In this document: positions 3,164 through 45,600 of the stretch, one piece after another
How the letters are laid out: each line of letters starts with the position of its first letter
Numbering within the stretch: the stretch's first letter is position 1
IMG/VR virus record: IMGVR_UViG_3300032236_000245
Span: 1-62,712 of that record
DNA from: a virus
Strand: one strand, 5' to 3'
DNA length: 62,712 bases
Position numbers and translations under genes: made by a program
The notes under the pieces: generated by a model
What the model was told of the DNA's origin: nothing
The model's database searches: none
What the model saw: only the letters and a program-made list of their open reading frames with translations

Positions 3164-3172
3164 ATACAAACA

Positions 3173-3694: not shown

Positions 3695-3705
3695 TGCGAT
3701 ACTCC

Positions 3706-4050
3706 TTAAAAGGGAAGAATAATTGATCTGCCGTGTTCAGCGGCGTTCATAGCCTCATCAACGACTTGCTTAAACGTTTTGCACGGCAAGCCGTGTTTCT
3801 TTTTTTCGCCGCATCCGTCACAGATATAACTGTCGCAAGCACGGCAGTATTCGCGTTCACGAGTACGTTGCGGGTTCATAACTACAACATACTGACAATG
3901 CGAACAAGTATAAGTCGGGGTTTCAAATAGCCCTTTACTCGCGCCTACCGGTAGCCCAGAAGCGCGTAGCATCTCCTCGGGTGTTGGCATATGCCCTGCC
4001 CGATTGTCGATCATCAAGTAGCCTTCTTTCGACCGCTTGCTGTTAGCCAT
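3706..4050 (-). CDS. Small zinc-ribbon protein
   Basis: 114 aa if it begins at MANSKRSKEGYLMI, which has a GAGGGG ribosome binding site. The open frame extends upstream to 4227, but that part lies antiparallel inside the preceding gene's frame and has no such site. Cys pairs C49-x2-C52, C69-x2-C72 and C77-x2-C80 (CSHC, CRAC, CDGC) form one or two zinc ribbons. A MPTPEEMLRASGLP segment precedes them. Similar small zinc proteins occur among phage head-tail genes with unknown function. Confidence 0.75.
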   Translation of the reverse strand: MANSKRSKEGYLMIDNRAGHMPTPEEMLRASGLPVGASKGLFETPTYTCSHCQYVVVMNPQRTREREYCRACDSYICDGCGEKKKHGLPCKTFKQVVDEAMNAAEHGRSIILPF

Positions 4051-4058
4051 AGACCCCT

Positions 4059-4508
4059 CTATGCGATTTGAACGATTGCAGCGCCCGAGCCAGCGACCGG
4101 GAACTGTACTGTGAAGGTACCGGACGAAACCGTTTTGGTACCGCCAAAATTCAATACAGCGACAGAATGACCTGTCGTTGCGTTGTAGATCAACGCACCA
4201 TCTGCGCTGAACGAAGCGCCAGTCCAAACGGCATTGGCGAAGTTGATGAACGCTGTCGTAGTCGGCGTACCGCTAGAGGATGGCACCTGACTGATGGTTA
4301 ACGTCTGACCAGTTTGCGTGTAGCCCCCAGCCGTTAACAACTCTCCTGCTGAGGTATATACCGTCGTGGTCGCATCTAGCGACGCGCCATTGGCAATGGA
4401 GTAGAGGGCGATCTTGTACGTGTAAGGCGTACCCGCTGCGAAGTTCACGACTCCGCTGAGGCAGTCCACCTTGAATGAGGTGGTCATACATTGGGTAATA
4501 CCGCTCAT
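4059..4508 (-). CDS. Virion structural protein, unknown
   Basis: The 149-aa protein (MSGITQCMTTSFKVDCLSGV...) is a mainly beta protein rich in Thr, Ala and Gly. The motif TYKIALYS near residue 30 and the pattern 'FINFANAVWTGASFSADGAL' near 90 resemble small phage proteins annotated only as structural. Its start overlaps the stop of the 214-aa connector-like gene by 4 nt, pointing to coupled translation. Confidence 0.65.
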   Translation of the reverse strand: MSGITQCMTTSFKVDCLSGVVNFAAGTPYTYKIALYSIANGASLDATTTVYTSAGELLTAGGYTQTGQTLTISQVPSSSGTPTTTAFINFANAVWTGASFSADGALIYNATTGHSVAVLNFGGTKTVSSGTFTVQFPVAGSGAAIVQIA

Positions 4509-5149
4509 TGTACTGGCACCCTAACTTGTCCGTCTCGGTAAGCATCGCGACGATTCTTGCCATCGCCAAGTTGTTTAAGCAGACCCATGCCTTCCTGATA
4601 TTTCTGCTCGTAGTTCTGGATGATATCCGCTTCACCCTTCATGAACAGGTAGGCTTCACGCAGCGCACCATAGAGAAGGACTTCAGCAAAGTTGTTACCC
4701 AACCACGACGTACCCGCTGTCACGATGGATTCTGGGTAGTAGTAATAGTGCAACTCTACTGCATAAGACGCATCGGGCGTAGGTCCTAAAATCAAAGTAT
4801 TTACATCGAATTGAGCATAGTACGCGGGCGTGCCGGACGCAGAAGGTACAGGAAAAGATTCACGGATAAAGTTCACGTCTTTGTCGAGCAAGAACGTTTG
4901 GGCTTGAGTCGTCGGGTCGATCACTGTCAACGAGAACGTCGCCAACCAGTCCGTAGGTAGCGTGAGGTATTTATTGCCCACGGTCATGATGCCGGTTTGA
5001 TTCTTCCGAATCGCCGGGATCTGAACTGAGTTGTAGACCCGCTCTTCCGCAAGTTGCACGAAGTTCGGGATGTTACTCACGAACGTCGGTTCCGTATTCT
5101 GGGTGTAGTCCTGAATCGTTTGCTTCAGAGCAGTGTAGGACAGGTTCAC
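4505..5149 (-). CDS. Head-tail adaptor or tail tubular A-like protein
   Basis: The 214-aa protein begins MNLSYTALKQTIQDYTQ, with IPNFVQLAEERVYNSVQIP at about residues 26-44, then a beta-rich middle and a helical C-terminus (WLGNNFAEVLLYGALREAYL). This helix - beta - helix layout is that of phage adaptor proteins which sit under the portal and anchor the tail (T7 gp11-type, P22 gp4-type). Placement in the virion block fits. A second connector-like protein lies at 5925-6644. The exact ring each forms is not decidable here. Confidence 0.7.
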   Translation of the reverse strand: MNLSYTALKQTIQDYTQNTEPTFVSNIPNFVQLAEERVYNSVQIPAIRKNQTGIMTVGNKYLTLPTDWLATFSLTVIDPTTQAQTFLLDKDVNFIRESFPVPSASGTPAYYAQFDVNTLILGPTPDASYAVELHYYYYPESIVTAGTSWLGNNFAEVLLYGALREAYLFMKGEADIIQNYEQKYQEGMGLLKQLGDGKNRRDAYRDGQVRVPVQ

Positions 5150-5152
5150 GGT

Positions 5153-5431
5153 TTAGCCCTTCGTCTTGACCGGATCACGATCTTCAGCATCCGAATAGAA
5201 CTTGCGACCGCGCTCGGCAGCGCCGTATCCCCGCATATCAATGCGGTTCTTCGGCTTGCCATACGGGTCGATAAACCGGCCCTTGGACTTGGTACCCGTC
5301 AGGTTCATCTCGTCCTGCGGATAGCCCTGCATGGTCGGGTTATCGTTCGACTGCGGCTGCTTGTACTTACCGATGGGATCTTCATCCCACCCGTACCAAG
5401 AAAACTTGTCGTTCTTGTTGTGGTTAGCCAC
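5153..5431 (-). CDS. Small hydrophilic virion-region protein
   Basis: 92 aa, starting with GTG at 5431 (VANHNKNDKFSWYGWDEDP, read as Met). It is rich in Lys, Asp, Gly and Pro, with repeated short charged stretches such as YGAAERGRKFYSDAEDRDP, and is probably largely unstructured. The start overlaps the stop of the 41-aa gene upstream by 8 nt. Function unknown. Confidence 0.6.
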   Translation of the reverse strand: MANHNKNDKFSWYGWDEDPIGKYKQPQSNDNPTMQGYPQDEMNLTGTKSKGRFIDPYGKPKNRIDMRGYGAAERGRKFYSDAEDRDPVKTKG

Positions 5432-5549
5432 GGCCCTTACCCTTCTTCTGGTTCATCACACGGGACATGTTACGCCCGTACTTCTTACGATCCAACGAGG
5501 ACGGACCACCGTTGGAATGCTTCTCTTCGCCGTGAGTCTTCTTAGTCAT
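5424..5549 (-). CDS. Very small Lys-rich protein
   Basis: 41 codons from ATG 5547-5549 to TAA 5424-5426: MTKKTHGEEKHSNGGPSS, then DRKKYGRNMSRVMNQKKGKGRG. It is strongly basic. An AGGAGATGT ribosome binding site lies just upstream of the ATG, and it overlaps the next gene by 8 nt. Length and charge match the small basic proteins found around the head-tail genes of this phage (6644-8548). Function unknown. Confidence 0.6.
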   Translation of the reverse strand: MTKKTHGEEKHSNGGPSSLDRKKYGRNMSRVMNQKKGKGRG

Positions 5550-5558
5550 CTACATCTC

Positions 5559-5921
5559 CTACGAAATCGTAACAGTAACTTGACCGACACTGCCCACCCC
5601 AACCAACGCATTAGGCGTCTCAGGAAGGAATGCTGTGTTGTAACCAACGGGGTTCCAGCCCCACTGATAAATTCGGCTACCCACGATTGGCTCGTAGTAG
5701 CTTGTATCTGGGCGCGGGTCACGCACCGCCTGTGGGTCATTGACGGGATAAAGCCCCAGTTGCAACTGAGGCTGATCAGGCTCCCAACACGTCGAACACA
5801 CTTTGATGTTGACGTTTTTGGTCTTGATGACGAGGTTCTTGAGTTCCGTCAGTTTGTAACGGAACCCACAGCGGTCACATTCCGCAATCGAATTTCGTGC
5901 TGACGCCCAACGACTAGTCAT
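5559..5921 (-). CDS. Zinc-ribbon structural protein
   Basis: 120 aa. An N-terminal ribbon has C15-x2-C18 (CDRCGF) and C42-x2-C45 (CSTCWEPDQP). The C-terminal part is aromatic and Gly/Val-rich (SRIYQWGWNPVGYN; VGVGSVGQVTVTIS). Proteins with this CDRCG...CxxCWEPxQP pattern recur in phage virion gene clusters, often next to connector genes, with no assigned function. It sits 3 nt after the 239-aa connector-like gene. Confidence 0.75.
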   Translation of the reverse strand: MTSRWASARNSIAECDRCGFRYKLTELKNLVIKTKNVNIKVCSTCWEPDQPQLQLGLYPVNDPQAVRDPRPDTSYYEPIVGSRIYQWGWNPVGYNTAFLPETPNALVGVGSVGQVTVTIS

Positions 5922-5924
5922 ACA

Positions 5925-6644
5925 TCACCGCAAAAACGTTTCACGTGGAACGAATCGAATCGCAGCCTTTTCGCGGTCTTCGTCCGCTGCTCGCTGCCAT
6001 TCTTCTTCGTACACCAGTTTAAGTGCAGGGGACCGTGCATCGGCTCCGGGGAGTTTCATAGACAAATAATACGACAGACCGGCCACCAAAACAGGTAAGA
6101 ACCTAAACGGGATGTCCTGACCATTGATGCCGTTCCCGGCGTCCTGCATCCGCTTCAGTCTGGTATATACGAAGGTATATACCGTGCTGTTGTCCGGGGC
6201 GGGCCAGACTGTGATCGTCGGGTTTACCGTCGATCCCGTGGCGCTCGTGGCTCCCGACAAACGGTTAATCCACACCTGAATAGGACGTCCTGTAGCGTTT
6301 TTATTTGGGATAGATAAATAGGTCGAGCTGGAGATTCGTGTAATGTTGATGTCGATCTGCGTAGTACCCGAACCGGTACGTACCACGTGATCTAACAGAT
6401 CTACAGTGTCTACAGGAAGGGTGTACGTTGCGGTACCGGGAGACATCGTGATCGTACCCGTGTCTAACGTCCACAGGTTGATGCCCCGGTTGGCCCATTC
6501 AGCCAGCATCAGATTCAGACTACGCCTCGCCGTGCGTAGGTCATAGCCCGAGCGAAGCTCTGCTCCGCACCGCTCAAAAGCCTCTTCAACAATGTCGTTG
6601 AGGTTTAAGTTGAACGTATCTGTGCCGCTGAGATTGTAGGTCAT
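5925..6644 (-). CDS. Head-tail connector / gp4-like protein
   Basis: 239 aa from ATG 6644, whose A is shared with the previous TAA (TAATG coupling); a GTG 12 nt upstream is an alternative. Residues ~12-50 are helical (DIVEEAFERCGAELRSGYDL, then RTARRSLNLMLAEWANRGIN), followed by a beta region with YTLPVDTVDLLDHVV and a C-terminal helical part ending AAIRFVPRETFLR. This is the layout of P22 gp4-like connectors that seat on the portal. The codons for VPRET contain a parS-like palindrome (5937-5952). Confidence 0.7.
   Translation of the reverse strand: MTYNLSGTDTFNLNLNDIVEEAFERCGAELRSGYDLRTARRSLNLMLAEWANRGINLWTLDTGTITMSPGTATYTLPVDTVDLLDHVVRTGSGTTQIDINITRISSSTYLSIPNKNATGRPIQVWINRLSGATSATGSTVNPTITVWPAPDNSTVYTFVYTRLKRMQDAGNGINGQDIPFRFLPVLVAGLSYYLSMKLPGADARSPALKLVYEEEWQRAADEDREKAAIRFVPRETFLR
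5937..5952. promoter_or_regulatory. parS-like site inside connector gene
   Basis: The 16-mer CGTTTCACGTGGAACG contains the 14-bp core GTTYCACGTGRAAC of chromosomal ParB sites with Y=T and R=G. It is coding (VPRET). A second, fully palindromic match lies at 23324-23339. No ParB-like gene was recognised in the window. Confidence 0.5.
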
Positions 6645-20388: not shown

Positions 20389-21945
20389 TCAGTAGTACCG
20401 CCGCGATCTTGAGCGGGTGGACTTGAATAGTTGGATAGGTTCCGGTTCATCATTAGGTAGACGGATAAACCCACCCTGCCTGAAACGCATGAGAGCCAGA
20501 GTAGTTGCGTCCACCAAGTCATCGTTCCTCCCCGCTGGAAAGTCGTTGCACTCTTCAATGACTTCCCAAGCCCAACGACGATCAGGCGCCCACACGATAC
20601 CCGACGCGAACAGATCTGTAATAGAATTTACACGGGATATCTTATCCTGCCCCTTACCGGGAGTGAACTCCATGGCTGGCACACCCATACGGCGTAGCTC
20701 TTGATAGAGCGCGGCTCCGTTAGACTTTTTCTCCACAATGAAGGAGTCGGGGTTCCAGTCTTTGTACTGCTCCAAGACCATGGCCTTGAGGTCCGGGTAC
20801 TCCATCCGCTCCTTGATGGCGTTGAGCAGGATGATGTTGTTGCTTTTGGTCTCCTCGTTATAGAAGACCCCCCAGACGAGCAGGGCGTTGAAGTCGGCTC
20901 GGTTACTTTCCTCTTGTGCCGCGTCAAGGGTCATGATGGTGAAGCTACACTGGGGTGGGTCATCCGCCTCCCAGATATTCCACCACTCCCTTTTAATAAG
21001 AGCGCCCTCTTCGCTGACCGGCTCCTGCATGTACTGGGCTTGCCAGTACCGGACGTCCATACCGGCCTTCTTAGCCAGCAGCTCGTCCATGGTCCAGAAC
21101 TCGGGCCACAGGGGTTTATCGTTGAGTACGGCGGGAAACTCCACCACCTCCCACTGATCGGCGTCATCGTTCCGAGTCATGTGGTCAATAATCTGTCCGG
21201 TCAGGTCTAATTTAGACCATCGCGTCATCACGACGATGATCGCGCCTCCGGGCATCAAACGTTGGATCGGACCCGACTGGAACCACTCCCACGCCGGTTC
21301 AAATACGTCCGATCTAAGCTGTTTAGCCTCTTGTTCAGAGTGCGGATCGTCAATAATGAATAAATCAGCACCCCGACCAGCGAGAGCGCCGCCCACACCG
21401 ATAGCGAAATACTCTCCATTCGCGTTTGTACCCCATCGTGAAGCCGATTTTGAGTCCGCCTGAAGCTCAACTTGCGGGAAAATGTCGTGATAAAGGTCCG
21501 ATCCGACGAGATTTCGCACCCTTCTACCGAAATTGACCGCCAAATCGGCGGTATGCGAGGCCATGATGACCTTTTTATGCGGAAACTTGCCCAAAAACCA
21601 CGCCGGGGCGAGGTAACTGATCATTTCTGACTTGCCATGACGGGGGGCGATGTTCACGATGACCCGTTTCTTCTTCCCGTCAGCGATCTCCTCGAAGATC
21701 CTTGCAAGTTTTTCGTGATGTGGACCCACCTTGTAGCCCGGATACACGTGCTTGATGAAGTCGAGGAACGAATTGCGCCCCGTTTCCTTGGCGATCTCGG
21801 CTTGGTAGACTGATAAAAGTTCTAACGTCCGACGCTTCTGCTTGTCGGGCATTGTCGGGAGGGCCGCACGGAGCTTCGCAATGTCTGATGACGATAATTT
21901 CGGTGAAAAAGTCGGGGATAAGCTATTCGCGCTGTTCTGCGTCAT
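20389..21945 (-). CDS. terL: Terminase large subunit
   Basis: 518 aa. The ATPase has Walker A APRHGKSEM at residues 100-108 and Walker B LFIIDDP at 195-201, with an arginine-finger-like MTRWSKLDLTG near 246. The nuclease half has LDAAQEESNRADFNALLVW (first Asp near 344), a middle EKKSNGAALYQELRR, and the last acidic cluster NDDLVDATTLALMRFRQGG. This is the terminase_6/17-type headful packaging motor that cuts concatemers and pumps DNA through the portal. It overlaps the small subunit gene by 23 nt. The GRGADLFIIDD line matches many prophage TerLs. A headful enzyme would agree with circular permutation. Confidence 0.92.
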   Translation of the reverse strand: MTQNSANSLSPTFSPKLSSSDIAKLRAALPTMPDKQKRRTLELLSVYQAEIAKETGRNSFLDFIKHVYPGYKVGPHHEKLARIFEEIADGKKKRVIVNIAPRHGKSEMISYLAPAWFLGKFPHKKVIMASHTADLAVNFGRRVRNLVGSDLYHDIFPQVELQADSKSASRWGTNANGEYFAIGVGGALAGRGADLFIIDDPHSEQEAKQLRSDVFEPAWEWFQSGPIQRLMPGGAIIVVMTRWSKLDLTGQIIDHMTRNDDADQWEVVEFPAVLNDKPLWPEFWTMDELLAKKAGMDVRYWQAQYMQEPVSEEGALIKREWWNIWEADDPPQCSFTIMTLDAAQEESNRADFNALLVWGVFYNEETKSNNIILLNAIKERMEYPDLKAMVLEQYKDWNPDSFIVEKKSNGAALYQELRRMGVPAMEFTPGKGQDKISRVNSITDLFASGIVWAPDRRWAWEVIEECNDFPAGRNDDLVDATTLALMRFRQGGFIRLPNDEPEPIQLFKSTRSRSRRYY

Positions 21946-23376: not shown

Positions 23377-23871
23377 ATGAACATTCTTTCGCAGATTCAG
23401 GTCGGTAAGGTTATTAAATCCATCAAACTCCGCGCGGCTAACGTGGAGCGTGACATTCACATTGTTGGCGTCTCCACGCTCGTGCATATGCGTGACCATG
23501 GCGACTACACGGGCGCGGTCGCTCTGCTGAATGCGTTGCCTAAGGGACAGCGCGTGAAGGCGTTGGCTGCATGGTATAAGCACAATTCGTCCAACAAGTT
23601 TCACGCGCGGATTGATAAGGACACGGGCGAATGGGTCGGCAAACTCGAAAAGGGTCGCGCTGATTCTGATTTTCTTATCGTACAGGCAGAGGCTAAATCA
23701 TTCGCGGAATTGACCGTGGAGCGCGAGCCTGTCCAGATCACCGAGGACACGCTCGCGAAGTATCTGGAGCGCATCGCGTCCAACGATGAGATGCTGGACA
23801 ACGGCAAGCCTAAGGTGACTGAAACTGCTAAGGCTCGCGCTCGCGCGATGCTCGCGGTCATCGCTGCCTAA
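23377..23871 (+). CDS. Early protein of unknown function
   Basis: 164 aa from ATG 23377 (MNILSQIQVGKVIKSIKLRA), chosen because an AGGAA site lies 6-7 nt upstream. Further motifs: VHMRDHGDYTGAVALLNALP, KGQRVKALAAWYKHNSSNKF, and a C-terminal helix ETAKARARAMLAVIAA. The KSIKxRxxxxxxxIHxxxxSxLxHxxxHGDYTxAxxLxxALPKGxRxxALxxW pattern is shared with early proteins of many phages that have no assigned role. It is followed by a strong terminator and stands alone as a transcription unit next to the candidate origin. Confidence 0.8.
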   Translation: MNILSQIQVGKVIKSIKLRAANVERDIHIVGVSTLVHMRDHGDYTGAVALLNALPKGQRVKALAAWYKHNSSNKFHARIDKDTGEWVGKLEKGRADSDFLIVQAEAKSFAELTVEREPVQITEDTLAKYLERIASNDEMLDNGKPKVTETAKARARAMLAVIAA

Positions 23872-23940: not shown

Positions 23941-23949
23941 TGTGGATAA
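23941..23949 (-). promoter_or_regulatory. DnaA-box match
   Basis: TGTGGATAA is the exact complement of TTATCCACA, the strong DnaA box. It is intergenic and about 100 bp before the TGTGTCA cluster. Two more exact matches (1149-1157 and 52229-52237) lie in structural genes, so the word alone is weak evidence; the position is what makes it interesting. Confidence 0.4.
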
Positions 23950-23950
23950 G

Positions 23951-23983
23951 TGCTAACGTGCTCGCACGTTAGCATTTTTTTTT
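23951..23983 (+). terminator. Strong intrinsic terminator
   Basis: TGCTAACGTGC (23951-23961) pairs perfectly with GCACGTTAGCA (23964-23974) and is followed by nine T (23975-23983). It ends the transcript of the 164-aa gene and insulates the repeat region beyond it. Confidence 0.9.
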
Positions 23984-24045: not shown

Positions 24046-24423
24046 TGTGTCAATTTTTTGGATTCTGTGTCAGTTTTTGGGTTTTGTGTCAGGCCGTTTT
24101 TGCGGATTGACACAGCGCAAGTGCATGATTGCAAAGGAGAAACGTCGATTTTGTGTCACTGTGTCAGTTTTTTCTGTGTCACGTTTCCAGATTTTGGTGT
24201 TTTTGGTCGAGTCCGTTAGTTCTGCAAATGCTATCGGATACAACCCTATAAAACGCAGAAACAGGAATCATTCAAAAATTACTGACACAACTGACACATT
24301 GACACAACTATACTAATAATTTTTTTTTTTTTTTTTTAATCAATAACTTAGGAGCGAAAAAATTCTGTGTCAGTGATTTTTAACGCACTGCAAAACTGAC
24401 ACAGAATTTCAAAAACTGACACA
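24046..24423. repeat. Iteron-like cluster of TGTGTCA with 18-T tract: candidate replication origin or control region
   Basis: TGTGTCA occurs at 24046, 24066, 24085, 24152, 24160, 24175 and 24366; its complement TGACACA at 24108, 24283, 24292, 24300, 24397 and 24417. That is 13 copies in 378 bp, against about 0.05 expected by chance on both strands. Several copies extend to ATTCTGTGTCAGT. An uninterrupted run of 18 T (24320-24337) sits between the groups. No gene is convincing between 23984 and 24460. Spaced repeats next to an AT-rich tract are the usual architecture of iteron origins; multiple operators for a repressor would look similar. Confidence 0.8.
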
Positions 24424-31730: not shown

Positions 31731-31952
31731 ATGAGTAAGCCTGAGAAGATGGGATATTGCATCAAGTGCGGTCGCCCCGGTTTAGTTCGATTAGTTAGAC
31801 GAAATAGCAGCAGCAAAATACGTATGTGGTTGTGCATACCATGTATACAGTTCAAACAAAGTTATCAGGAGACAAAGCATGAGCGAGGACGCACTGAAGA
31901 TAGCGGAGATGGCGTCGGAGATATGGCGGCTGAAGTACCTAAAGGAACGTGA
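31731..31952 (+). CDS. Small zinc-ribbon protein
   Basis: 73 aa from ATG 31731 (MSKPEKMGYCIKCGRPGLVR), or four codons more from ATG 31719. Two pairs, CIKC and CIPC (WLCIPCIQFKQ), would bind one zinc. The last 74 nt overlap the next gene in another frame, and the tail there (HERGRTEDSGDGVGDMAAEV) is probably unstructured. No clear ribosome site. The Cys pattern makes it worth keeping. Confidence 0.5.
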   Translation: MSKPEKMGYCIKCGRPGLVRLVRRNSSSKIRMWLCIPCIQFKQSYQETKHERGRTEDSGDGVGDMAAEVPKGT

Positions 31953-32184
31953 CACGTTCCGCGAACATCAGGAGGCGTGGAAGAAGAATAACCATCACCA
32001 CGCTGCCGAGATCGAACAACTAAAGAAAGAGATCGAAGCCATGCGCGTATTGCTAGGCGAGTCTATTCTCGCTGAGCGCGAGGCGTGTGCGAAAGTAGCG
32101 GATGAGTGGCAGACAGAAATTGATGATCCGCGATATCAATGTGACTGCGCCGAAGCCATCCGTGCGCGGGGGGAGAAGCCATGA
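31879..32184 (+). CDS. EREACAKV-family small protein 1
   Basis: 101 aa. The first 60 residues are a coiled coil (LKIAEMASEIWRLKYLKERD, AEIEQLKKEIEAMRVLLGES); the end is LAEREACAKVADEWQTEIDD then CAEAIRARGEKP, the signature of the tandem family that follows. AGGAGACAAAGC provides a good ribosome site. A perfect inverted repeat GGAACGTG-A-CACGTTCC lies inside it at 31944-31960. Confidence 0.7.
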   Translation: MSEDALKIAEMASEIWRLKYLKERDTFREHQEAWKKNNHHHAAEIEQLKKEIEAMRVLLGESILAEREACAKVADEWQTEIDDPRYQCDCAEAIRARGEKP

Positions 32185-32423
32185 CCCACGATGACATCAT
32201 TCGGATGGCGAAGGAGTCGGAGTTGTGGAACGTCATAAAGCAACATTGTCATGAATATGGCGACGGGCTACCTACACTTGGTTGCTATCCGGAACTTGAA
32301 CGCTTTGCCAACCTTGTCGCCGCCCATGAGCGTGAGGCGTTTGCGCGGGTGTGTGAGGAACACAAAGCATTGCGTTTGGCAGAAATGATTCGTGCGGGAG
32401 GAAATGAACATGAAAACTTTTGA
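32181..32423 (+). CDS. EREACAKV-family small protein 2
   Basis: 80 aa: MTHDDIIRMAKESELWNVIK, then LERFANLVAAHEREAFARVC and EMIRAGGNEHENF. It shares the three-part layout of the family: an N-terminal M-T/N-R/H-D/E-DI-I/T-x-MA helix, a central LERFAxLVAAHEREAxAxVC helix, and an AxxIRA(R)G end. ATG overlaps the previous stop. Such proteins are frequent in phages and prophages of Burkholderiales and have no known function. Confidence 0.7.
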   Translation: MTHDDIIRMAKESELWNVIKQHCHEYGDGLPTLGCYPELERFANLVAAHEREAFARVCEEHKALRLAEMIRAGGNEHENF

Positions 32424-32655
32424 TCAAATTATTGACGCAAATATGACGGTGACCGATCATTTGCTGCGAGACGCTATCTATGCCGTTATCGTGGACGCTA
32501 TCTTCGAAGCCATTGAGACTGAGCGCGAGGCGTGTGCGAAGGTGTGCGAGACGCCGATTGATGAGGTTCAAGATACGGATGACGATTCGCATTACGTTTA
32601 CATGAGCGGGTTGCAATGCGCCGCAGCCATCCGTGCGCGGGGGGAGAAGCCATGA
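32410..32655 (+). CDS. EREACAKV-family small protein 3
   Basis: 81 aa from ATG 32410 (MKTFDQIIDANMTVTDHLLR), 7 nt after GGGAGGA; ATG 32404 is too close to that site. The middle has AIETEREACAKVCETPIDEV and the end QCAAAIRARGEKP. It lacks the DDIIxMA start of its neighbours, so its N-terminus has been exchanged or diverged. Overlaps neighbours by 14 and 4 nt. Confidence 0.65.
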   Translation: MKTFDQIIDANMTVTDHLLRDAIYAVIVDAIFEAIETEREACAKVCETPIDEVQDTDDDSHYVYMSGLQCAAAIRARGEKP

Positions 32656-32876
32656 CCCGCGATGACATCATTCAGATGGCGCGTGAGGCGGGTTGTGACC
32701 CGCACGATATGAGTGATGACTTTTCGTGCAATCTGCGTGATCTGGAACGCTTCGCCGCCCTTGTCGCCGCGCATGAACGTGAGGCGTGTGCATGGGTAGT
32801 TATAAACGCAGATTCGGATTTTAGAGCCATGAAAAGAATTGCCGCCCAGATCCGTGCGCGAGGAGATAAGTCATGA
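32652..32876 (+). CDS. EREACAKV-family small protein 4
   Basis: 74 aa from ATG 32652, overlapping the previous TGA. MTRDDIIQMAREAGCDPHDM, then RDLERFAALVAAHEREACAW and RIAAQIRARGDKS. Nucleotide sequence around its start is nearly identical to that around 32170-32210, which shows recent tandem duplication. Function unknown. Confidence 0.7.
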   Translation: MTRDDIIQMAREAGCDPHDMSDDFSCNLRDLERFAALVAAHEREACAWVVINADSDFRAMKRIAAQIRARGDKS

Positions 32877-33127
32877 ACCGTGAAGACATTACTCAAATGG
32901 CGTGGGAGGCGCGTTTATGGATTGACGAAAAGTACAACCCGATTGCAGAAGCACTAGAACGCTTCGCCGCCCTTGTCGCCGCCCATGAGCGCGAGGCGTG
33001 TGCGAAGGTGTGTGATGAGATTCAAGAGCGATGCAGCAAACGCAACATGGGCCGGTGGCCTGAAGATTGCCCAGACGATGAAGACGGCGCTGAAGATTGC
33101 GCCACAGCCATCCGTGCGCGGGAGTAG
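32873..33127 (+). CDS. EREACAKV-family small protein 5
   Basis: 84 aa, ATG in an ATGA overlap. MNREDITQMAWEARLWIDEK, then EALERFAALVAAHEREACAK, an acidic Cys-containing loop (DCPDDEDGAEDCATAIRARE). DNA of the central helix (about 32957-33005) is almost the same as at 32741-32790. Last full member of the array. Confidence 0.7.
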   Translation: MNREDITQMAWEARLWIDEKYNPIAEALERFAALVAAHEREACAKVCDEIQERCSKRNMGRWPEDCPDDEDGAEDCATAIRARE

Positions 33128-33129: not shown

Positions 33130-33234
33130 ATGAACAGGGATAACATTGGCGAAAGGCTAGGAAGTTTTATGGCGTTCGTAGCGGTTGTTTCGCTTGCGTA
33201 CGTTCTCGCCCATTTCATTTCAAAGTATTGGTGA
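33130..33234 (+). CDS. 34-aa membrane peptide
   Basis: ATG 33130 to TGA 33234: MNRDNIGERLGSFMAFVAVV, SLAYVLAHFISKYW. One hydrophobic helix from residue 12 to 30. The N-terminal MNRDNIGE resembles the MNREDIT start of the gene before it, so it may be a truncated family member joined to a membrane segment. It ends 4 nt before the polymerase start. Confidence 0.5.
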   Translation: MNRDNIGERLGSFMAFVAVVSLAYVLAHFISKYW

Positions 33235-33238
33235 AGCC

Positions 33239-35074
33239 ATGAGCATCATCACCATTGACTTTGAAACGTACTACGACAAGGAGTATTCCCTGTCGAAGAT
33301 GACCACGGAGGAGTACATCAACGACCCACGCTTTGAAGTGATCGGCGTGGGTGTGAAGGTGGAGGATCAGGAGTCCGTTTGGTACACCGGCAAAGAAGTT
33401 GCGTATGTATTAAAGAATCTGAACTGGGCTGACCATGCCGTCCTATGCCACAACACATTGTTCGATGGCGCGATCCTATCGTGGAAGTACGGCGTCAAGC
33501 CGGGGATGTGGTTCGATACGTTGTCCATGGCACGTGCATTGCACGGGACAGAGGTGAGCGGTTCACTGAAGGCGTTAGCTCAACGCTACAACATAGGAGA
33601 AAAAGGTGATGAAGTTATTAACGCTCTTGGTAAAAGGCGCGTGGATTTCGATGAAGTTTCTCTTGAGCGGTATGGCGTGTATTGCCGTAACGACGTTGAT
33701 CTCACTTACCGATTGTTCCAGTACCTTTCACAAGGCTTCCCCGACAGTGAATATGAACTCATCGACCTCACACTTAGAATGTACACCGAACCGACACTTG
33801 AAGTTGACTCGCTGCTACTTACAGACAAACTAGAAGAGATACGTGCAGCCAAGACCGCGATGCTAAGCAAACTGACTGAGGTCACTGGTGTCGCGGATGA
33901 TGAAGCGGTGCGAAAAATACTCGCGAGCAATCCCAAATTCGCGAAGTTGCTAACCGAACTCGGGGTCAAAGTCCCGATGAAAACAAGCCCAACGACAGGC
34001 AAGGACACGTATGCACTGGCGAAAAACGATGAGGGATTTATACAACTCTTGGACCACCCAGAACCGTTGGTCCAAGAACTCTGTCGAGTCCGACTTGGTA
34101 CTAAGTCAACGATTGAAGAATCTCGCATCGAACGTTTTATCGGAATTGCTAGCCGTAATAATGGTGCTATTCCTGTCCCTCTGCGCTATTACGGTGCTCA
34201 TACCGGCAGGTGGAGCGGTCTTGATAGTGTCAATTTTCAGAATCTACCAAGCCGTGACAAGGCAAAGAAAACCCTAAAGAACGCGATCCTCGCACCGCCC
34301 GATCACGTGGTGATCAACTCGGACAGCAGCCAGATTGAGGCGCGTGTATTGGCGTGGCTGTCGGGGCAAAAGGATCTCGTAGCACAATTTTATAGGGGCG
34401 AGGACGTGTATAGCTTGTTTGCCAGCAAGGTGTACAACCGTCCCATAAGCAAAAAAGATCCAATAGAACGGTTCGTTGGTAAGACCTGTATCTTGGGGTT
34501 GGGCTACGGTACAGGCGCGGCCAAGTTACAGGCGACGCTGAAGCTAGGAGGAGCCGATCTGACGGTTGAGAAGTGCAAGGAGATCGTTGACCTGTATCGC
34601 TCGTCAAATGCCCGGATACCGACGCTGTGGCGGCAGTGCGATGACGCATTGCAGAGCATGATGCAGGGCGGCGGCGGAGCGTTGGGGATTCGAGATGTGA
34701 TCCAGTTCTCAAAAGAGGGTATACGTCTCCCAAATGATTTGTATATCCGATACGAGAATTTAAGACTAGACGAAGGCGGCAGACCCCTGTATGACTCACG
34801 TAAAGGGCCGGTCAATATATGGGGCGGGGCGATGGTCGAGAACATCGTACAGGCCCTAGCCCGGATCGTGATCGGGGACCAGATGCGTTGGATAAGCAAG
34901 TACTATCGTCCGGTGATGACGGTACACGACGCGCTAGTCTACGTTGTGCCTCGTGCAGAATTAGAACAGGCGATGGAATTTATAACGCTGTGTATGTCCA
35001 CACCACCCGCATGGGCTGAGGGACTGCCGGTAGCATGTGAGGCGAAGCATGGGAGGACTTATGGGGATTGTTGA
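33239..35074 (+). CDS. Family A DNA polymerase with 3'-5' exonuclease
   Basis: 611 aa from ATG 33239. The exonuclease has Exo I D7-F-E9 (ITIDFETYYDKEY), Exo II in LCHNTLFDGAILSWKYG and Exo III in YCRNDVDLTYRLF. The polymerase has motif A with D362 (VINSDSSQIEARVLAWLSG), motif B (RFVGKTCILGLGYGTGAAK) and motif C V-H563-D564-A-L-V. Usual motif C is HDE; here Glu is Ala. The order matches phage PolA-type replicases that lack the 5' nuclease domain. It replicates the phage genome together with the prim-pol/helicase. A small gene overlaps its end by 14 nt. Confidence 0.93.
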   Translation: MSIITIDFETYYDKEYSLSKMTTEEYINDPRFEVIGVGVKVEDQESVWYTGKEVAYVLKNLNWADHAVLCHNTLFDGAILSWKYGVKPGMWFDTLSMARALHGTEVSGSLKALAQRYNIGEKGDEVINALGKRRVDFDEVSLERYGVYCRNDVDLTYRLFQYLSQGFPDSEYELIDLTLRMYTEPTLEVDSLLLTDKLEEIRAAKTAMLSKLTEVTGVADDEAVRKILASNPKFAKLLTELGVKVPMKTSPTTGKDTYALAKNDEGFIQLLDHPEPLVQELCRVRLGTKSTIEESRIERFIGIASRNNGAIPVPLRYYGAHTGRWSGLDSVNFQNLPSRDKAKKTLKNAILAPPDHVVINSDSSQIEARVLAWLSGQKDLVAQFYRGEDVYSLFASKVYNRPISKKDPIERFVGKTCILGLGYGTGAAKLQATLKLGGADLTVEKCKEIVDLYRSSNARIPTLWRQCDDALQSMMQGGGGALGIRDVIQFSKEGIRLPNDLYIRYENLRLDEGGRPLYDSRKGPVNIWGGAMVENIVQALARIVIGDQMRWISKYYRPVMTVHDALVYVVPRAELEQAMEFITLCMSTPPAWAEGLPVACEAKHGRTYGDC

Positions 35075-36375: not shown

Positions 36376-37953
36376 ATGCAAGTAATAAACGACAGTGCAA
36401 TCCAGTTAAAACTTCCAGTCGAAATTCAAACAGCCATCACAGATAGAGTACACAAGTCACGCATATTCAAAGATGAAGTGGTGTTCTATTGGGGACCGGA
36501 GGAAGTCAGGATAGTCAACGCTATCCTTGATGAGTACCGTCCCCGACTCACCTTGCCTGAGATCCCGTCACCCATCGTGCGGGATTACAAATGGCCGGGG
36601 GTCTATCAGCCGTTCGATCATCAACGTGAAACCGCATCGTTCTTGAGCGGTCGCCAACGTGCGTTCTGCTTTAACGAAGCAGGAACAGGCAAGACGTCTG
36701 CCGCCATATGGGCTGCTGACTATCTCATGTCACATGGCTATGTGAAGCGCGCCTTGATCGTGTGTCCTCTGTCTATCATGTACTCCGCATGGCAAGCGGA
36801 TGTATTTAAGACGGCGATGCACCGGACATGCGGCGTGGCTCATGGCACGGCAGCGAAGCGTGAGAAGATCATCAAGGAGAAGTTTGATTTCGTCGTGACG
36901 AACTACGAAGGCGTTGGCGTGGCGTTCGATGCCATCCAGAAGGCGCAGTTCGACCTGATCATCATCGACGAAGCCAACGCCTATAAGACCGTCTCTACGA
37001 AGCGTTGGAAGACGCTTGCCAAGTTGATCACCCCGCAGACATGGCTATGGATGATGACCGGCACACCGGCCTCTCAGTCGCCTGAGGACGCTTTCGGACT
37101 TGCTCGGTTGATCGCCCCACAGCGTGTGCCGAAGTTCATGACGGCATGGCGCGATAAGGTCATGCTGCAACTGACGCGGTTCAAGTGGGTCCCAAAGCTA
37201 ACTGCTAAGACTGATGTGTACAACGCGCTACAACCTGCTATCAGATTTACCAAGTCTGAGTGTCTGGATCTCCCAGACCTTGTATACCAGACGCGCGACG
37301 TTCCATTGAGTACCCAAGCCGCTAAGTTCTATAAGCAGTTGAAGACGCAAATGCTCATCGAAGTTGGTGATACACAAGTCACCGCTGTGAATGCGGCTGC
37401 AAGCATGAATAAGCTTTTACAAGTCAGCGGCGGTGCGGTTTATGCAGATGGTAGACAGGTCGTTGAGTTCGACATCAACCCACGCCTAAATGCGTTGAAA
37501 GAGGTACTTGACGAAACCCTCCACAAGGTTATTATCTTTGTCCCCTATCGCCATACGATCCAAGTAGTCGAGCGATGGTTGAAGGAGGAGGGACATTCAG
37601 TAGAAGTGATTGACGGTGATGTATCTGCGGGTGCGCGGAACCGTATTATTCAGGCGTTTCAGACGCACGATGATCCGAAGATCCTAGTCATCCAACCGCA
37701 AGCAGCATCACACGGTGTCACTCTTACAGCAGCCGATACGATTGTTTTCTGGTCACCGGTTATGTCAGTTGAGACATACATGCAATGCGTAGCCCGTATT
37801 GATCGCGTGGGTCAGAAGAACAAGATGACGGTTGTACATCTTCAAGGCTCGGATGCTGAGCGGCGCGTGTACACGATGCTGCGAGGCAAGTTAGGTAGTC
37901 ACTTACAGTTAGTCGATTTATATAAGTCAGTCATGGAGTCCGACGAAGTATGA
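36376..37953 (+). CDS. SNF2-type DEAD/H-box helicase
   Basis: 525 aa. Motif I FNEAGTGKTSAA with K106; motif II D198-E-A-N in LIIIDEANAYK; motif III WMMTGTPASQSPED; motif IV in HKVIIFVPYRHTIQVVE; motifs V-VI in QAASHGVTLTAADTIVFWSP and YMQCVARIDRVGQKNKMTVV, the SNF2-type QxxRxxRxGQ. Phage SNF2-like helicases of this size take part in replication and recombination. Its Walker B is DEAN, as in some phage members. ATGA overlap with the next gene. Confidence 0.9.
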   Translation: MQVINDSAIQLKLPVEIQTAITDRVHKSRIFKDEVVFYWGPEEVRIVNAILDEYRPRLTLPEIPSPIVRDYKWPGVYQPFDHQRETASFLSGRQRAFCFNEAGTGKTSAAIWAADYLMSHGYVKRALIVCPLSIMYSAWQADVFKTAMHRTCGVAHGTAAKREKIIKEKFDFVVTNYEGVGVAFDAIQKAQFDLIIIDEANAYKTVSTKRWKTLAKLITPQTWLWMMTGTPASQSPEDAFGLARLIAPQRVPKFMTAWRDKVMLQLTRFKWVPKLTAKTDVYNALQPAIRFTKSECLDLPDLVYQTRDVPLSTQAAKFYKQLKTQMLIEVGDTQVTAVNAAASMNKLLQVSGGAVYADGRQVVEFDINPRLNALKEVLDETLHKVIIFVPYRHTIQVVERWLKEEGHSVEVIDGDVSAGARNRIIQAFQTHDDPKILVIQPQAASHGVTLTAADTIVFWSPVMSVETYMQCVARIDRVGQKNKMTVVHLQGSDAERRVYTMLRGKLGSHLQLVDLYKSVMESDEV

Positions 37954-39248: not shown

Positions 39249-39560
39249 ATGCGCCCGTACGACAAGCGTCTACTTGAGGTCATTCGGACTATTGAGAACC
39301 CGACCCTTGGGCAGACGCTTGCTCGTGCGTGTTTGAGCGCGAATATCCCGGTCACTCATGTGGCTCACGCGTTAGAAGTTACACGTATGACGATTCATAC
39401 GTGGTATCGCGGCGGCGAGATACGCGGCAATAACAAGAAGATGATTAACCTGTTCATGGACTATGTGTCGCGTGATACGAGTTCAGGCAGGTTACCCGCT
39501 AAAGATCTAGAAGACGCTACCAAATACATCGAAGAACTAACGGGCGTACGTATGAAGTGA
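39249..39560 (+). CDS. Small HTH protein
   Basis: 103 aa. A helix-turn-helix is visible at residues ~26-58: TLARACLSANIPVTHVAHAL, EVTRMTIHTWYRGGEI. The C-terminus is helical (RLPAKDLEDATKYIEELTGV). It could be a transcription regulator or DNA-binding accessory of replication. It lies 9 nt after the ssDNA-binding-like gene, 46 nt before the primase, and has no close ribosome site problem. Similar HTH proteins ('LARxCLxxNIPVxxVAxALxVTRxTIHxWYxG') are seen next to phage primases. Confidence 0.75.
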   Translation: MRPYDKRLLEVIRTIENPTLGQTLARACLSANIPVTHVAHALEVTRMTIHTWYRGGEIRGNNKKMINLFMDYVSRDTSSGRLPAKDLEDATKYIEELTGVRMK

Positions 39561-39606: not shown

Positions 39607-42408
39607 ATGAGAAAACAATTTTATAGAAAAGCATTGTCATCACAGGGTGTGTACTGCGCGGTTGGGATCAAGGACGGACACCCTGATCAACAATACGCAG
39701 ACACACTAGATCAACTGGATACCCTGATCCAAGCCTTCATCAGTCAGGGAGCAAATGTCTATGTAGCGATGAGTTCATTCAAAGGTCACAGCCGCAAGGC
39801 TGCGGACGCAATGTACTGTCGTTCACTATTTATTGATCTTGACGTAGGCGAAGACTTACGGAAGTACCAATCCAAAGACGAAGCTAAGTTGGCGCTGAAT
39901 GACTTTCTTACGTCATCAGAACTGCCGCCGCCTATCGTAGTGGATTCAGGCACTGGTCTCCACGCGTACTGGTGCTTCAACGAAGACGTGCCGTCAAACG
40001 AGTGGCGCGTCTATGCTACAAAGTTTAAGGCTTACTGTATCTCGCAGGGATTACGGATTGATCCCGTAGTTACCGCTGACGCTGCGCGTATCCTGCGCTG
40101 CCCATACACGTTCAACTTCAAAACCACGCCGCCCTCACCGACTGTCATTGAGACACCGGATGACGAGTGGTACACCTACGATTTCGACGCATTCAAGGAG
40201 TTCCTCGGTGCTGACATTGATACGCCTGATCAGACGGCGATATTTGCCAAAGTCGAAAAAGGTCTGGACGACGATACGAAAGCACTGCTGAAGCTAAACA
40301 ATATAGAAACGTCGTTCGCATTGATCGCACGACGCAGCCTAGAAGGTAAGGGCTGCAACCAAATCAAATATGTTCTTGAACATGCCGCCGCGCTTCCTGA
40401 GCCTGTGTGGCATTCCGGATTGTCGATTGCACGAGCATGCGTGGATGGTGACGAGGCCATTCATCTTATGTCTCAAGACGATCCGCGCTATGACGCTGAC
40501 CTAACCATAAAGAAAGCAAACGAGACGGTAGGTAAACCCCATGGATGCGAAATATTTGAAACCCGAAATCCCGGTGGGTGTAACGGATGTCCTTACAAGG
40601 GAAAGATCACAAACCCATTGTATTTCGGACGGCAGTTACGAGAGGCGGACGCCGAGGAGGACTCAGTTCGGCTCATCGAGGATTCCGAAGCTATTCACGC
40701 AGTACTTAAATTCCCCGACTTCATGTACCCATATCAACGAGGTGCAGATGGAGGAGTCTACTGTGTGCAGTCCGATGACAAGGACACCGAAGGTCCGTTA
40801 CTGATCTGGCAGTACGATATCTATCCAGTCAAGCGGATGTACGGGCATACGGAAGGCGAGTGCTTACTGATGCGGCACATCATGCCGCACGACGACGTGC
40901 GTGAGTTCTTACTGCCCATGTCATCGGTGTATTCACCCGAAGAAATCAAAAAGCGGTTCTCTACACATGGGGTCTTTTTTAAGCCTAAGTTAGCGCCGTT
41001 GGTCACGGACTACATTATCAAGTGGGCAACATATATGGTCGGCAAGAAGATGGCTGAGCAGATGGCGAAGCAGATGGGTTGGACCCAAGACAACAAGGGC
41101 TTCATCATCGGTGAGACCGAGTACCGTCACGATGGCAAGCAGTCCCCGGCGGCGTTGTCTTACTTCCTACGCGACATCAAGGCACTCCTGACCACGTCAG
41201 GAACCTATGAGGAGTGGCAGCGCGGGGCCAAGATGTTGAACATGGAAGGCATGGAGATGCACGCGTTCGGCATGATGATGGGGTTCGGTTCACCCCTTAT
41301 GCGTTTCACAACCGTTGCCGGGATTACCGTCTGCTACACAGGCGAGTCCGGTGCGGCCAAGACAGGCGCACTCAGGGCGGCTTGCAGCATCATGGGCAGT
41401 CCGAATGGTTTGGAGTTGAGCGGCGACAAGGACAGCACGGCGACGGACAATGCGTTCGGTCAATGGATGCTCAGCCTCAAGAACATCATGATGGCGTTGG
41501 ATGAAGCGTCCAACCGTGATGCAAAGAACGTGTCAGACCTGATTTATAGGGTCAGCGCCGGAAAGGGCAAACTCCGCATGGTGGCGTCCGTAGATTCTAT
41601 CCGCGAGATCCCACGGCAGTCATGCCTGATCAACTTCATGACCTCTAACCAACCCATGACGGGCAAGTTGGGATCGCTGAAGGACAACCCGGACGGCGAG
41701 TTGGCACGTCTCATTGAGTTCTACATTTACAAGCCAAAGCTGTTCAACCTTCGCCCCGGCATCGCCAAGGAGATATTTGAGACGCTGCGCTTGAATTACG
41801 GATGGGCGGGGCCGTTGTATGTGCAACATCTATTCAAGGTGGGCGACAAATACATTCAGGATCTGGTCACTAAGTGGGGCATCCGATTTAGCAAGGACTA
41901 TGGCACAGACAGTGCCTATAGGTTCTATGAAGCTCTCGTCAGTGTTTGCTTCGCAGGGGCTGAACTCGCCGCTGAAGCCGGTATCGTAGCCTTTGATTTA
42001 GAACGAATTTATTCAACCGTTATAGAAACGCTAATCAAGATGCGTGACGGTGACGCGATGACCGTTAACTCGCGTGATTACGAGTCGGTCTTGGGTGAGT
42101 TTCAGAACACGTTCTACGGCAACACGGTCCTCTTCAAGGGCAAGAACATGCTGCGCGACGTGAAGGTTGGCAAGATCGTGGCACGGCTTGAGTTGGATAC
42201 TCAGATGTTCTACGTCCCTCGGGCTGAGATGCGGAAGTACTTTCAGACCCGTCAGATCGACGAGAAGGACTTCGTACGGCACATGGAAGAGCGTGGCATC
42301 CTAGCGTTCAAGGATCGCTACCGGCTGATCAGCAGCACGAACCCCGTGTCCATGTACGGGTTCAAGCGCGAGGTGAGCGAGGACGATTACCTGAGCGAGG
42401 GCGATTGA
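39607..42408 (+). CDS. Prim-pol (AEP) primase fused to a helicase domain
   Basis: 933 aa. N-terminal AEP primase: F-I-D77-L-D79 in SLFIDLDVGEDL, H119 in DSGTGLHAYWCFN, and DAARILRCPYTFNFK. A Cys-containing stretch, GCEIFETRNPGGCNGCPYKG (near 315), suggests a zinc site. The C-terminal helicase has a Walker A variant G579-E-S-G-A-A-K-T and Walker B ALD632-E633, with DUF927-like upstream sequence (EEWQRGAKMLNMEGMEMHAF). It would prime and unwind at the origin. No good ribosome site precedes the ATG, so its start or control may be unusual. Confidence 0.87.
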   Translation: MRKQFYRKALSSQGVYCAVGIKDGHPDQQYADTLDQLDTLIQAFISQGANVYVAMSSFKGHSRKAADAMYCRSLFIDLDVGEDLRKYQSKDEAKLALNDFLTSSELPPPIVVDSGTGLHAYWCFNEDVPSNEWRVYATKFKAYCISQGLRIDPVVTADAARILRCPYTFNFKTTPPSPTVIETPDDEWYTYDFDAFKEFLGADIDTPDQTAIFAKVEKGLDDDTKALLKLNNIETSFALIARRSLEGKGCNQIKYVLEHAAALPEPVWHSGLSIARACVDGDEAIHLMSQDDPRYDADLTIKKANETVGKPHGCEIFETRNPGGCNGCPYKGKITNPLYFGRQLREADAEEDSVRLIEDSEAIHAVLKFPDFMYPYQRGADGGVYCVQSDDKDTEGPLLIWQYDIYPVKRMYGHTEGECLLMRHIMPHDDVREFLLPMSSVYSPEEIKKRFSTHGVFFKPKLAPLVTDYIIKWATYMVGKKMAEQMAKQMGWTQDNKGFIIGETEYRHDGKQSPAALSYFLRDIKALLTTSGTYEEWQRGAKMLNMEGMEMHAFGMMMGFGSPLMRFTTVAGITVCYTGESGAAKTGALRAACSIMGSPNGLELSGDKDSTATDNAFGQWMLSLKNIMMALDEASNRDAKNVSDLIYRVSAGKGKLRMVASVDSIREIPRQSCLINFMTSNQPMTGKLGSLKDNPDGELARLIEFYIYKPKLFNLRPGIAKEIFETLRLNYGWAGPLYVQHLFKVGDKYIQDLVTKWGIRFSKDYGTDSAYRFYEALVSVCFAGAELAAEAGIVAFDLERIYSTVIETLIKMRDGDAMTVNSRDYESVLGEFQNTFYGNTVLFKGKNMLRDVKVGKIVARLELDTQMFYVPRAEMRKYFQTRQIDEKDFVRHMEERGILAFKDRYRLISSTNPVSMYGFKREVSEDDYLSEGD

Positions 42409-42617
42409 TGGAGATTGACCCGAAACTAGGGGAGCCGGTATGGGCGCTCCCCTTTGACCAACTGCGCGTCGGGATGAGTTTTTTCATTCCGACCAACAAG
42501 CCCAATGCCATGAAGCGCATTGTGGAAGATCGCGCCGCCGAAATCGGTTGCCGTATTAAGGCAACCGTGACCACCAAAGAAAGTTACCTCGGCGTACGCG
42601 TTTGGCGGGTGGCTTAG
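42408..42617 (+). CDS. Small protein at the end of the early block
   Basis: 69 aa: MEIDPKLGEPVWALPFDQLR, VGMSFFIPTNKPNAMKRIVE, DRAAEIGCRIKATVTTKESY, LGVRVWRVA. Compact alpha/beta with a FIPTxKPxAxKRxVxxxAxxxGxxIKxxVTxxxxxxGVRVWRV pattern seen in small early phage proteins. ATG overlaps the primase stop. Its TAG overlaps the stop of the convergent giant gene by 3 nt. Confidence 0.75.
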   Translation: MEIDPKLGEPVWALPFDQLRVGMSFFIPTNKPNAMKRIVEDRAAEIGCRIKATVTTKESYLGVRVWRVA

Positions 42618-45600
42618 CCTCCCCTATGGAATTTCTCTACAAGGCGGTCCTTCAACTTAGGCGGTAGCGTCACGCCATCTACTGCGTCTTCGGCTTTCTT
42701 CTGCCGGTTCATATAAGACTGCATGATGTTCTTAGGCATGATAGCGACTTCAGGATTCGCTTCGTTGAAGGCGTCGATTTCTTTTTGCACTTCCTCGCGC
42801 ATGTCATCGTTGCCAAGAACCTGCGCTCCGTACATCTGATCCATCAGCATCGACTTACGCTGCATAATCTTCTTAGCTTCTGCCGTCATCAACGACGCCC
42901 CCGCCCGTGCTTCAGTCACGTCGAGCGGAGCAAATCCCAACCCCTGCATCATTACGTTCCAAGCGTTCACGTTGTCTACAACCTTAGCGCCGTTTTTGTT
43001 TACTACCCCTTCCGTAGCGTATCTATATGCCTTGAGCGCATTACGCATGCCTGATGGCGTCATCGCCTCAAAGCCCTTCTCGTATTCACCCTGTGCAAAA
43101 AGTTGCATGGCGCGACCGGCTTGAACCATCGCTGAATACGCGGGACCCATCATATGCTCCATGGTGTAGAGCATCGGGCCGATTTCAGCTTCACGCTTCG
43201 GATCTTCCTTCCAAAGCATGTCACCCCATCCCGTACGACTGGAAATTTCTAAATTCGTCAGGTATCCCAAAGGCCCTTTATATGCCATGAGACCAATAGC
43301 GTTCTTCAGTTCTTCTTCGGCGTCGTAGGTCTCATCCTTGGTGCTAAACAACTGCGACGCCAACATTTCTCCCGCCCCAACTAATGGCATACCAGCAACG
43401 CCTGAGAACAGGAACGCCGTGCCGTACAACCCCAACAACTGTTTACGTGCAATCGCGCGAGTCTGAGCATTCTCGTCACGGAACGCTTCGTTAAACAGTC
43501 TCCCCATGATAAAGAATCGGTTCATCGCAAAGCGTTTGAACGTGAGAGCCACACGCGCAAATCCATTCTGCATATAGCGCGGCCCCGATTCTGCGAGGTT
43601 CGTACCATATGCACGGGTCACCATATCCATTGCCTTGCGCGAGGCTTCTTCGTGGTTGTCCCTACCCCCGGCAAGTTCATACGCCGCGATTAGCGTTGAC
43701 TCGCGGTTCAGGCGGTCGGCGCTTTCAAACATGAAATTCAGGCCGCGATTAACTTTAGCGAACGTGTTGTTGTAGTTCTCTAAAGAAGTATTCCTGAACT
43801 GCGACAACTCAGTACCGATGTGCCGCCCCATGACCCCGGCTTCGTTTGCGGCTTTGAACAGATCTTCGTACTCAGCCGGTATTTTACCCTTAACGCTAAA
43901 TTTGCCCATGGCTGCGGTCATTGCAGCGGACGTTTTATCGAACCCGTACTCGCCCCCCAATAGCGGATACACAACCATTGGCATGTGGGTAAAGTTAACG
44001 AACGCAGATGATGCGTTACCCGCCAGATACCACATGTAACTACCATACCCAAGCGTATTGACCAACTTGTTAAAGGTTGGCTTACGCATGAACGCAACCT
44101 GAGCCTCTACGTTACGGGCAGCAGAAGTGATGTTGTCGTCTGACTTGTGCAATTCAACTTGCTTACGCATGTTGTTCACTTCGTCTTCGACTTGTTGCGC
44201 GTACTTCAAATTCGTGAGGTTACGCGCCATCGCTGGTGCGAGGTTTGCAAAGGTCTGCAAAGTATCCCTGATCATACCGTGCCGGTTTTCACGTGAACGG
44301 TAACGCTGCATAGTCGCTGCGTTAGGCATGTAATTCAGGAAAGTCTCGTACACGTTGTCGAGCGTTTCTTCTGATACACCCTGCCGCGCCATCGCTTCCA
44401 AAACTTCACCCATCAATCCCGCCGGGACGCCTGTATTGTTACGTAGGTCACGGAGACGACGATAGGCTTCGGCATCGGAGCTAACAAGCTTCGCTTTACG
44501 CAAAGCCCGTTCTTGATCCATCTTCGTCTCATACGCTTGAGACACTCGGTTACCGTCCCTATCGGTATAGGTCACCCAGTAGTCGCCACGTCGAAAGAAC
44601 GGCATGTACACGCCAATACGACTGCTCGCAAACTTCGCCTTCATCTTTTGGGCAGCATCAGGCGACACCATCGACAAACAATACTGTTCAAATTCTTTAG
44701 ATTGGTTGTCGTAATACTCACGCATGCCGCGATAGATTTCAGCGAGCTGTGGATATCTTGCAGTGATCGCCCTGTATTGCGCGTACAACGGACTGCTGGT
44801 ATCGACGTCTTTACCGGAAGCCATTCCGTCTTCAAGTTCTACTTGATACAACGAACTGCGAATGGCGATGTCATGAAACTCGTTCATCACATCAGACGAA
44901 ATACCCTTTACGTCTGCCCACCACTTGAGCATCGTATCTTTAATGGCTTCCTGTCGCATGTTGCGTTCAGCACCGCGACGCCCCATCAACCTATCAAGTG
45001 CCTTAAACGCCGGAACCTTGTCGCCATAAAGTTGAGCCAGATGATCCAATGAAGAGAACCCGTGCGCCATGTCACGTACGACACCGGGGACTTCACTCAA
45101 CGCGGCCTTGATCCGATTGAACAACCCTGTTGTCGGCTCGGTGTAGTCATCTAACGGCTTACCAACATCATGAAGTTCTTCGGCGTCGGCTTCAGAATAG
45201 CGAACGTCTTTAGGAGGCGTGAAACGTTTTTCGACGCTCAGATTAAATTCTTCATTGTCCCCGTACTCTACGTTGAGTTTATGTACGGGCAAACCATGTT
45301 TGTCGTACTGCGATAGCACGTCGTTAGAAGATACGCGCCCCTCGTTTTTCCGAGATTCAATACGATCTAATTTACCGAATAGGCTATTTATTTCACCCCG
45401 TACGTCAGAAAGTTGACCACCTAAATCGCCCCACTTTTCAACAAACCCACGACGCCCTTTAACTTCTCTTGAGTAAACTAACTTATCAACGTCGGTTTCG
45501 CTAAGACCCAGTTTATTGAGGATAGCATTTCGACGTTTTTCTAACTCAGAGTACTTATCTCCCAAGTCAGCGTACTCTTCTTCTTTTGTTTTGGCATGTT

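Follow-up and report, generated by a model that had tools for sequence, protein, structure and literature searches.

The window analysed here, the whole 62,712-nucleotide stretch of a 62.7-kb virus record, carries a dense array of the 7-mer TGTGTCA at positions 24046–24423, and its DNA has no direct similarity to any named or annotated phage. The question raised by this locus is whether the array marks the place where replication starts or serves another purpose, and which protein reads it. Judging from the sequence, it is very probably the replication origin, of the iteron type, of a phage of roughly 60 kb.

The repeat array and its setting

The left arm of the genome reads leftward and includes the portal, terminase and head genes. 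A rightward gene block extends from 23.4 to 42.6 kb and encodes, among others, an AAA ATPase, a DUF2201 metallopeptidase/VWA protein, a RecB-like exonuclease, a family A DNA polymerase (33185–35074, plus strand) and an SNF2-type helicase (36376–37953, plus strand). The array is found near the start of this block, preceded by an intrinsic terminator on the plus strand (stem 23948–23977, then a T tail) that had already been predicted to its left and that separates it from the gene for a 164-residue phrog_1448 protein (23377–23871, plus strand).

Within 378 bp the array holds 13 copies of TGTGTCA, seven forward and six inverted, in agreement with the original prediction, and aligning them yields ..ttcTGTGTCAgTtttt, which covers the extended repeat ATTCTGTGTCAGT proposed earlier. 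The whole window contains 15 copies, the remaining two being strays, with a chance mean of 10.2 per window or about 0.06 per 378 bp. Dinucleotide shuffling of the window, repeated 40 times, never gave a 7-mer with more than six copies per 378 bp, compared with the 13 observed, and outside the array the real sequence reaches five. Counts and shuffles thus place the repeats beyond chance, as expected of an iteron-type origin. The stretch was also said to hold no convincing gene, and this holds, since the three ORFs overlapping it have no PHROG match and the stretch itself returned no Rfam match and no tRNA.

The copies fall into four groups. Outer left group A (24046–24114) has forward copies at 24046, 24066 and 24085 and an inverted copy at 24108, and is followed by an IHF-like site, AATCATGCACTTG (24118–24130, minus strand), with one mismatch to the consensus. 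The three forward copies of inner left group B (24152–24181) start at 24152, 24160 and 24175, the first two 8 bp apart. A central iteron-free spacer (24182–24282) leaves 108 bp between the last forward and the first inverted start, and inner right group C (24283–24306) consists of inverted copies starting at 24283, 24292 and 24300. An A+T block (24307–24337), the proposed unwinding element, comes next, ending in a run of 18 T (24320–24337), and abuts a perfect IHF site, AATCAATAACTTA (24338–24350, plus strand). Outer right group D (24366–24423) completes the array with a forward copy at 24366 and inverted copies at 24397 and 24417. The block falls in the 40-bp segment of the origin that is richest in A+T (fraction 0.93), and by composition it qualifies as the A+T-rich region that adjoins iterons.

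A scaffold shared by relatives

Relatives were gathered by protein searches, which gave five contigs with the 23377 gene, 80 with the polymerase and 80 with the primase-helicase, and the upstream stretches of their contigs were then fetched. In 28 sequences that reach this place, the window included, a cluster of a lineage-specific word lies about 2–4 kb before the AAA gene, so that a position near replication genes is conserved. The word is TGTGTCA, as in the window, in L256. Elsewhere it is, for example, TGAGTAG in L008, L009, L010 and L012; TGTTCCA in L015, L018, L020, L021, L252, L261, L267 and L270; TGTTCCG/T in L017; TGTTCAA in L263; TGTTCTA in L253 and L296; GGTTCCA in L258; GATTCCA in L262; AGTTCCA in L266; TGTTACC in L087; TGTAACC in L032 and L047; and TGTACGC in L248. 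Most of these can be placed in register with TGTTCCA. A number of the retrieved upstream stretches lacked a cluster of this kind, and several of the contigs concerned stop short of the place or have no AAA gene; a CATCTAC cluster in L107 was dropped as part of a repetitive stretch resembling coding sequence. The comparison with relatives that had been proposed as a check therefore finds layout and position kept and the word differing between lineages.

Read from the left, the common layout has outer words, a left IHF site and then two inner forward words spaced by 8 bp; beyond a gap lie an inner inverted pair with a spacing of 8–9 bp, an A+T block and, before further outer words, the right IHF site. 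Words in the left half point inward in 111 cases and outward in 25, and those in the right half in 90 and 26 cases, respectively. The A+T block recurs at the corresponding place in the relatives' origins; the predicted run of 18 T is present in the window, as one form of that block.

For IHF we scored the consensus WATCAANNNNTTR, which is also printed in PMC10380432. Perfect sites number 34 in 13.85 kb of origins (2.45 per kb) and 26 in 377 kb elsewhere (0.069 per kb), a density about 35 times higher in the origins. The first 19 regions contain 19 perfect sites where 0.96 are expected, and 300 shuffles reached a maximum of four. These sites occupy fixed places; several, among them the left one of the window, have one mismatch, and relatives carry perfect copies at the place of that left site.

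In the 11 origins that have the inverted pair, the right IHF site follows the last word of that pair at a distance of 38, 49, 49, 49, 59, 59, 60, 60, 60, 61 or 70, the window contributing the 38. This spacing thus corresponds to whole turns of the helix, with one-turn steps between lineages (resultant 0.95, period 10.8, p ≤ 5e-5 against random independent distances, a value that is optimistic, as are the other p-values for the scaffold, because the lineages, being related, do not count as independent). The fit is poorer for origins that have no clear inverted pair, and in L017 a second IHF site, with one mismatch, at 35 was disregarded as noise from A+T-rich sequence. The gap between the inner pairs measures about 104–132 bp and is phased more weakly (p 0.026), and the distance to the left IHF site clusters at 19–22 and 33–34 (p 0.001).

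Other elements are less general. The perfect DnaA box reported earlier, TTATCCACA (23941–23949, minus strand), is real, but such boxes occur near just eight of the 28 origins (0.34 versus 0.06 per kb, L015 alone supplying half), and we rejected them as a general feature. In L015, six perfect DnaA boxes lie within about 90 bp (2218–2305), some 280 bp to the right of the origin cluster, a grouping not seen in other relatives. An element resembling CCCCCTAT, found at 24244–24249 of the window, recurs in many related origins; its 6-mers are present in 10–11 of 19 origins, compared with about three expected, and as a third shared element it is weak, being in many yet not all of them. Cumulative GC skew, also suggested as a check, has its minimum at 22148, near the origin, and its maximum at 42444, but it tracks the switches in gene strand and, confounded in this way, says little.

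Two other functions were weighed against this layout. The array sits between the terminator and an 18-kb plus-strand gene block, and a promoter-like site (24291–24320, plus strand; a consensus match only) overlaps group C, as might be expected if a regulator on the words controlled an early operon starting at 24461. We consider such a multi-operator improbable, as an array of 13 copies in two arms, accompanied by an A+T block and two IHF sites in phase and maintained across very diverged relatives, exceeds the needs of an operator, and two TGTGTCA arrays in unrelated phages adjoin primase-helicase genes (see below). Initiators often repress from their own iterons, and the array may have a regulatory side effect besides its role as an origin. 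Centromeres can also be clustered short repeats; yet the major ORFs compared with PHROGs or Pfam gave no ParA or ParB, the terminase gene (20389–21945) is in the arm opposite to the replication block, and the cluster tracks replication genes in the relatives, which makes a partition or packaging site very improbable indeed. Position, two-armed layout, phased IHF sites, A+T block and replication-gene neighbours all support the phage origin first proposed for this stretch.

The primase-helicase as putative reader

The original prediction saw no obvious initiator and set the primase-helicase of the phage aside. We find no support for this view. The 933-residue protein encoded at 39607–42408 (plus strand) combines an N-terminal primase-polymerase fold, a DUF927 helicase domain (PF06048, E 6.7e-23) and a C-terminal winged helix (residues 858–921; 42178–42369, plus strand). 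A profile search returned Cch (PDB code 5dgk, E 6e-25) and the SaPIbov1 Rep (PDB code 8tch, E 1e-22) over the helicase. Its predicted structure has a mean pLDDT of 82, and a fold search placed the same two proteins first (3e-19 and 3.5e-16), while the N-terminus matched the primase-polymerases S-2L PrimPol (4e-7) and RepB' (2e-6). The C-terminal 163 residues (41917–42405) are predicted as a confident fold (pLDDT 87), for which Cch was again the best hit (probability 1.00, TM 0.39, with a modest E of 2.9e-3), followed by winged-helix proteins. The protein thus resembles Cch and SaPI Rep both in a homologous helicase domain and in a DNA-binding domain at the C-terminus that has the same fold. 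In SaPI Rep it is the C-terminal domain that recognises the iterons, and the corresponding domain of Cch2 binds its origin even in isolation (PMC7581432). Since its C-terminal winged helix resembles that of Cch, the primase-helicase is the better candidate, and it is likely that it reads TGTGTCA through this domain. In Rhizobium phage RHph_TM27A (MN988461; L096:27249–30332), a homologue of the primase-DUF927 helicase bears the annotation "putative integrase" (QIG66907.1).

The two candidates originally put forward fared poorly. Among the compared loci the 23377 protein occurs only in the window and L008–L012 and is not conserved with the origin; phrog_1448 is common to many Acinetobacter and Pseudomonas phages of about 41 kb, often near one genome end. 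None of the compared loci encodes a relative of the winged-helix-like 26368 protein, and no close relative of it or of the 27906 protein was confirmed in viral contigs.

The origin might also be a true one that is read by another protein, for example the small Cro-like HTH protein (39249–39560, plus strand), with the primase-helicase recruited by contact. Its gene directly precedes that of the primase-helicase and is kept in most relatives. A reader of the words should vary with them, however, and the recognition-helix region of this protein (SRMTIHSWFRG-like) is nearly constant while the words of the lineages differ; in addition, Cch- and SaPI-type helicases bear an origin-binding C-terminus of their own (PMC7581432). 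We therefore regard a reader of this kind as unlikely, though less so than a multi-operator.

Mixed-orientation TGTGTCA clusters were also found in two phage contigs unrelated to the window, at 1166–1383 of L154 and 3937–4119 of L162. Each lies directly 3' of a gene for a D5-type primase-helicase with D5_N/DUF5906 domains (1396–4047 and 4181–6235, respectively, both on the minus strand), an arrangement that matches the one described for SaPI. These clusters give independent support to the present reading, and they may be origins that arrived at TGTGTCA by convergence. The scan of viral contigs for TGTGTCA clusters by word alone otherwise gave mostly tandem or chance matches and no clear family member, and three other contigs with such clusters showed no initiator in the stretch examined. 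A scan of genomes for the initiator returned mostly metagenome-bin fragments, and those checked were too short to include the origin.

If the primase-helicase reads the words, its winged helix might be expected to change with them. Distances between winged helices correlate with distances between words (partial Mantel r 0.39, p 0.003–0.01), but the SNF2 control correlates more strongly (0.63) and the signal vanishes inside a close clade. We consequently rejected covariation of the whole domain as evidence, the control doing as well. The window and L256 share TGTGTCA, and their recognition helices are not unusually alike. At the level of single residues, Arg906 (codon 42322–42324), which lies in the wing, is conserved without exception in the 16 proteins whose words start with TG and is replaced by Gln, Gln and Lys in three with other words. 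It is the sole column of the 933 with this pattern, and among the 969 possible triples the observed one alone gives such a column in the winged helix. The cultured Pseudomonas phage Rollin, from outside the discovery set, fits (predicted origin around record positions 260–680, word TATGCAA, Val at 906); L052, on a very long branch, has the word TAGTTAG yet an aligned Arg. With this one exception, Arg906 tracks whether the word starts with TG. The link was found post hoc, the Gln-bearing proteins form one clade, and no more than two or three independent changes may underlie the pattern. A broader reading, in which one origin scaffold has its word swapped together with the winged helix to give mutually exclusive origin-initiator pairs, IHF sites keep their helical register through indels of whole turns and Arg906 reads the leading TG, is tentative, and we would give it somewhat less than even chances.

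Taken as a whole, we think it probable that the origin at 24046–24423 works as follows. The winged helix of the primase-DUF927 helicase would bind the TGTGTCA words, and host IHF would bend the DNA at its two consensus sites, bringing the arms together. The A+T block beside the right IHF site would then open, the run of 18 T perhaps melting first, and two helicase assemblies would load facing each other. The helicase would enter, the fused primase domain would prime and the phage PolA would extend. A word that varies on a scaffold whose IHF sites stay is what would be expected if recognition of the word falls to a phage protein and bending to the host.

Relation to known replicons

The closest parallels are the SaPI and SCC replicons, where clusters of short iterons are read, as proposed here, by a DUF927-type self-loading helicase with a C-terminal origin-binding domain (Cch, Cch2, SaPIbov1 Rep; PMC7581432). 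In those replicons the origin lies directly downstream of rep and primase and helicase may be separate, whereas here the two are fused and the origin lies about 15 kb upstream of the initiator gene. Owing to this distance, and with no second cluster in the window, we do not file the system as a SaPI-type replicon although it would work like one; the two phased IHF sites also set it apart. Archaeo-eukaryotic primases of the PrimQH/All3500 type with DUF927 and winged-helix domains have the same domain order, and their C-terminal winged helix was predicted in 2018 to recognise origins (PMC5862659). That prediction came without cognate origins or known target sites; putative origins for about 28 lineages now provide candidate sites.

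Plasmids pSC101 and R6K γ contain iterons, an A+T region and IHF sites, IHF being needed for efficient opening (PMC5043065). In these components they resemble the origin of the window. Both use small Rep proteins together with the host helicase; here, in contrast, the putative reader is the helicase itself, the words form two arms and DnaA boxes are no general feature. The α protein of satellite phage P4 (ori1 and crr) is a primase-helicase whose C-terminal domain binds short words in either orientation. To our knowledge, it is not a DUF927 protein. P4 needs the second site, crr, whereas the window, with two stray copies of TGTGTCA outside the array, has no second cluster.

The machine is thus of a known kind, and what is new is a family of phage origins whose words are interchangeable and which have two IHF sites. 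In the literature accessible to our search, which left most subscription journals out of reach, there appears to be no description of phage origins with exchangeable words and phased IHF sites. The family offers about 28 natural origins with different words beside initiators, about 20 of them with both partners known; because different words are paired with their initiators, specificity can be tested by exchanging domains or words. Searching for a two-armed cluster of words with IHF sites paired around it could likewise help to find origins in uncultivated phages.

Two further features of the window were observed beside the replication genes. Four adjacent small genes at 31879–33127 contain, in whole or in part, the motif (L)ERFA.LVAAHEREA.A and look like tandem paralogues, and a 2284-residue protein is encoded at 42614–49468, the C-terminal part of which matches DarB-like antirestriction families.
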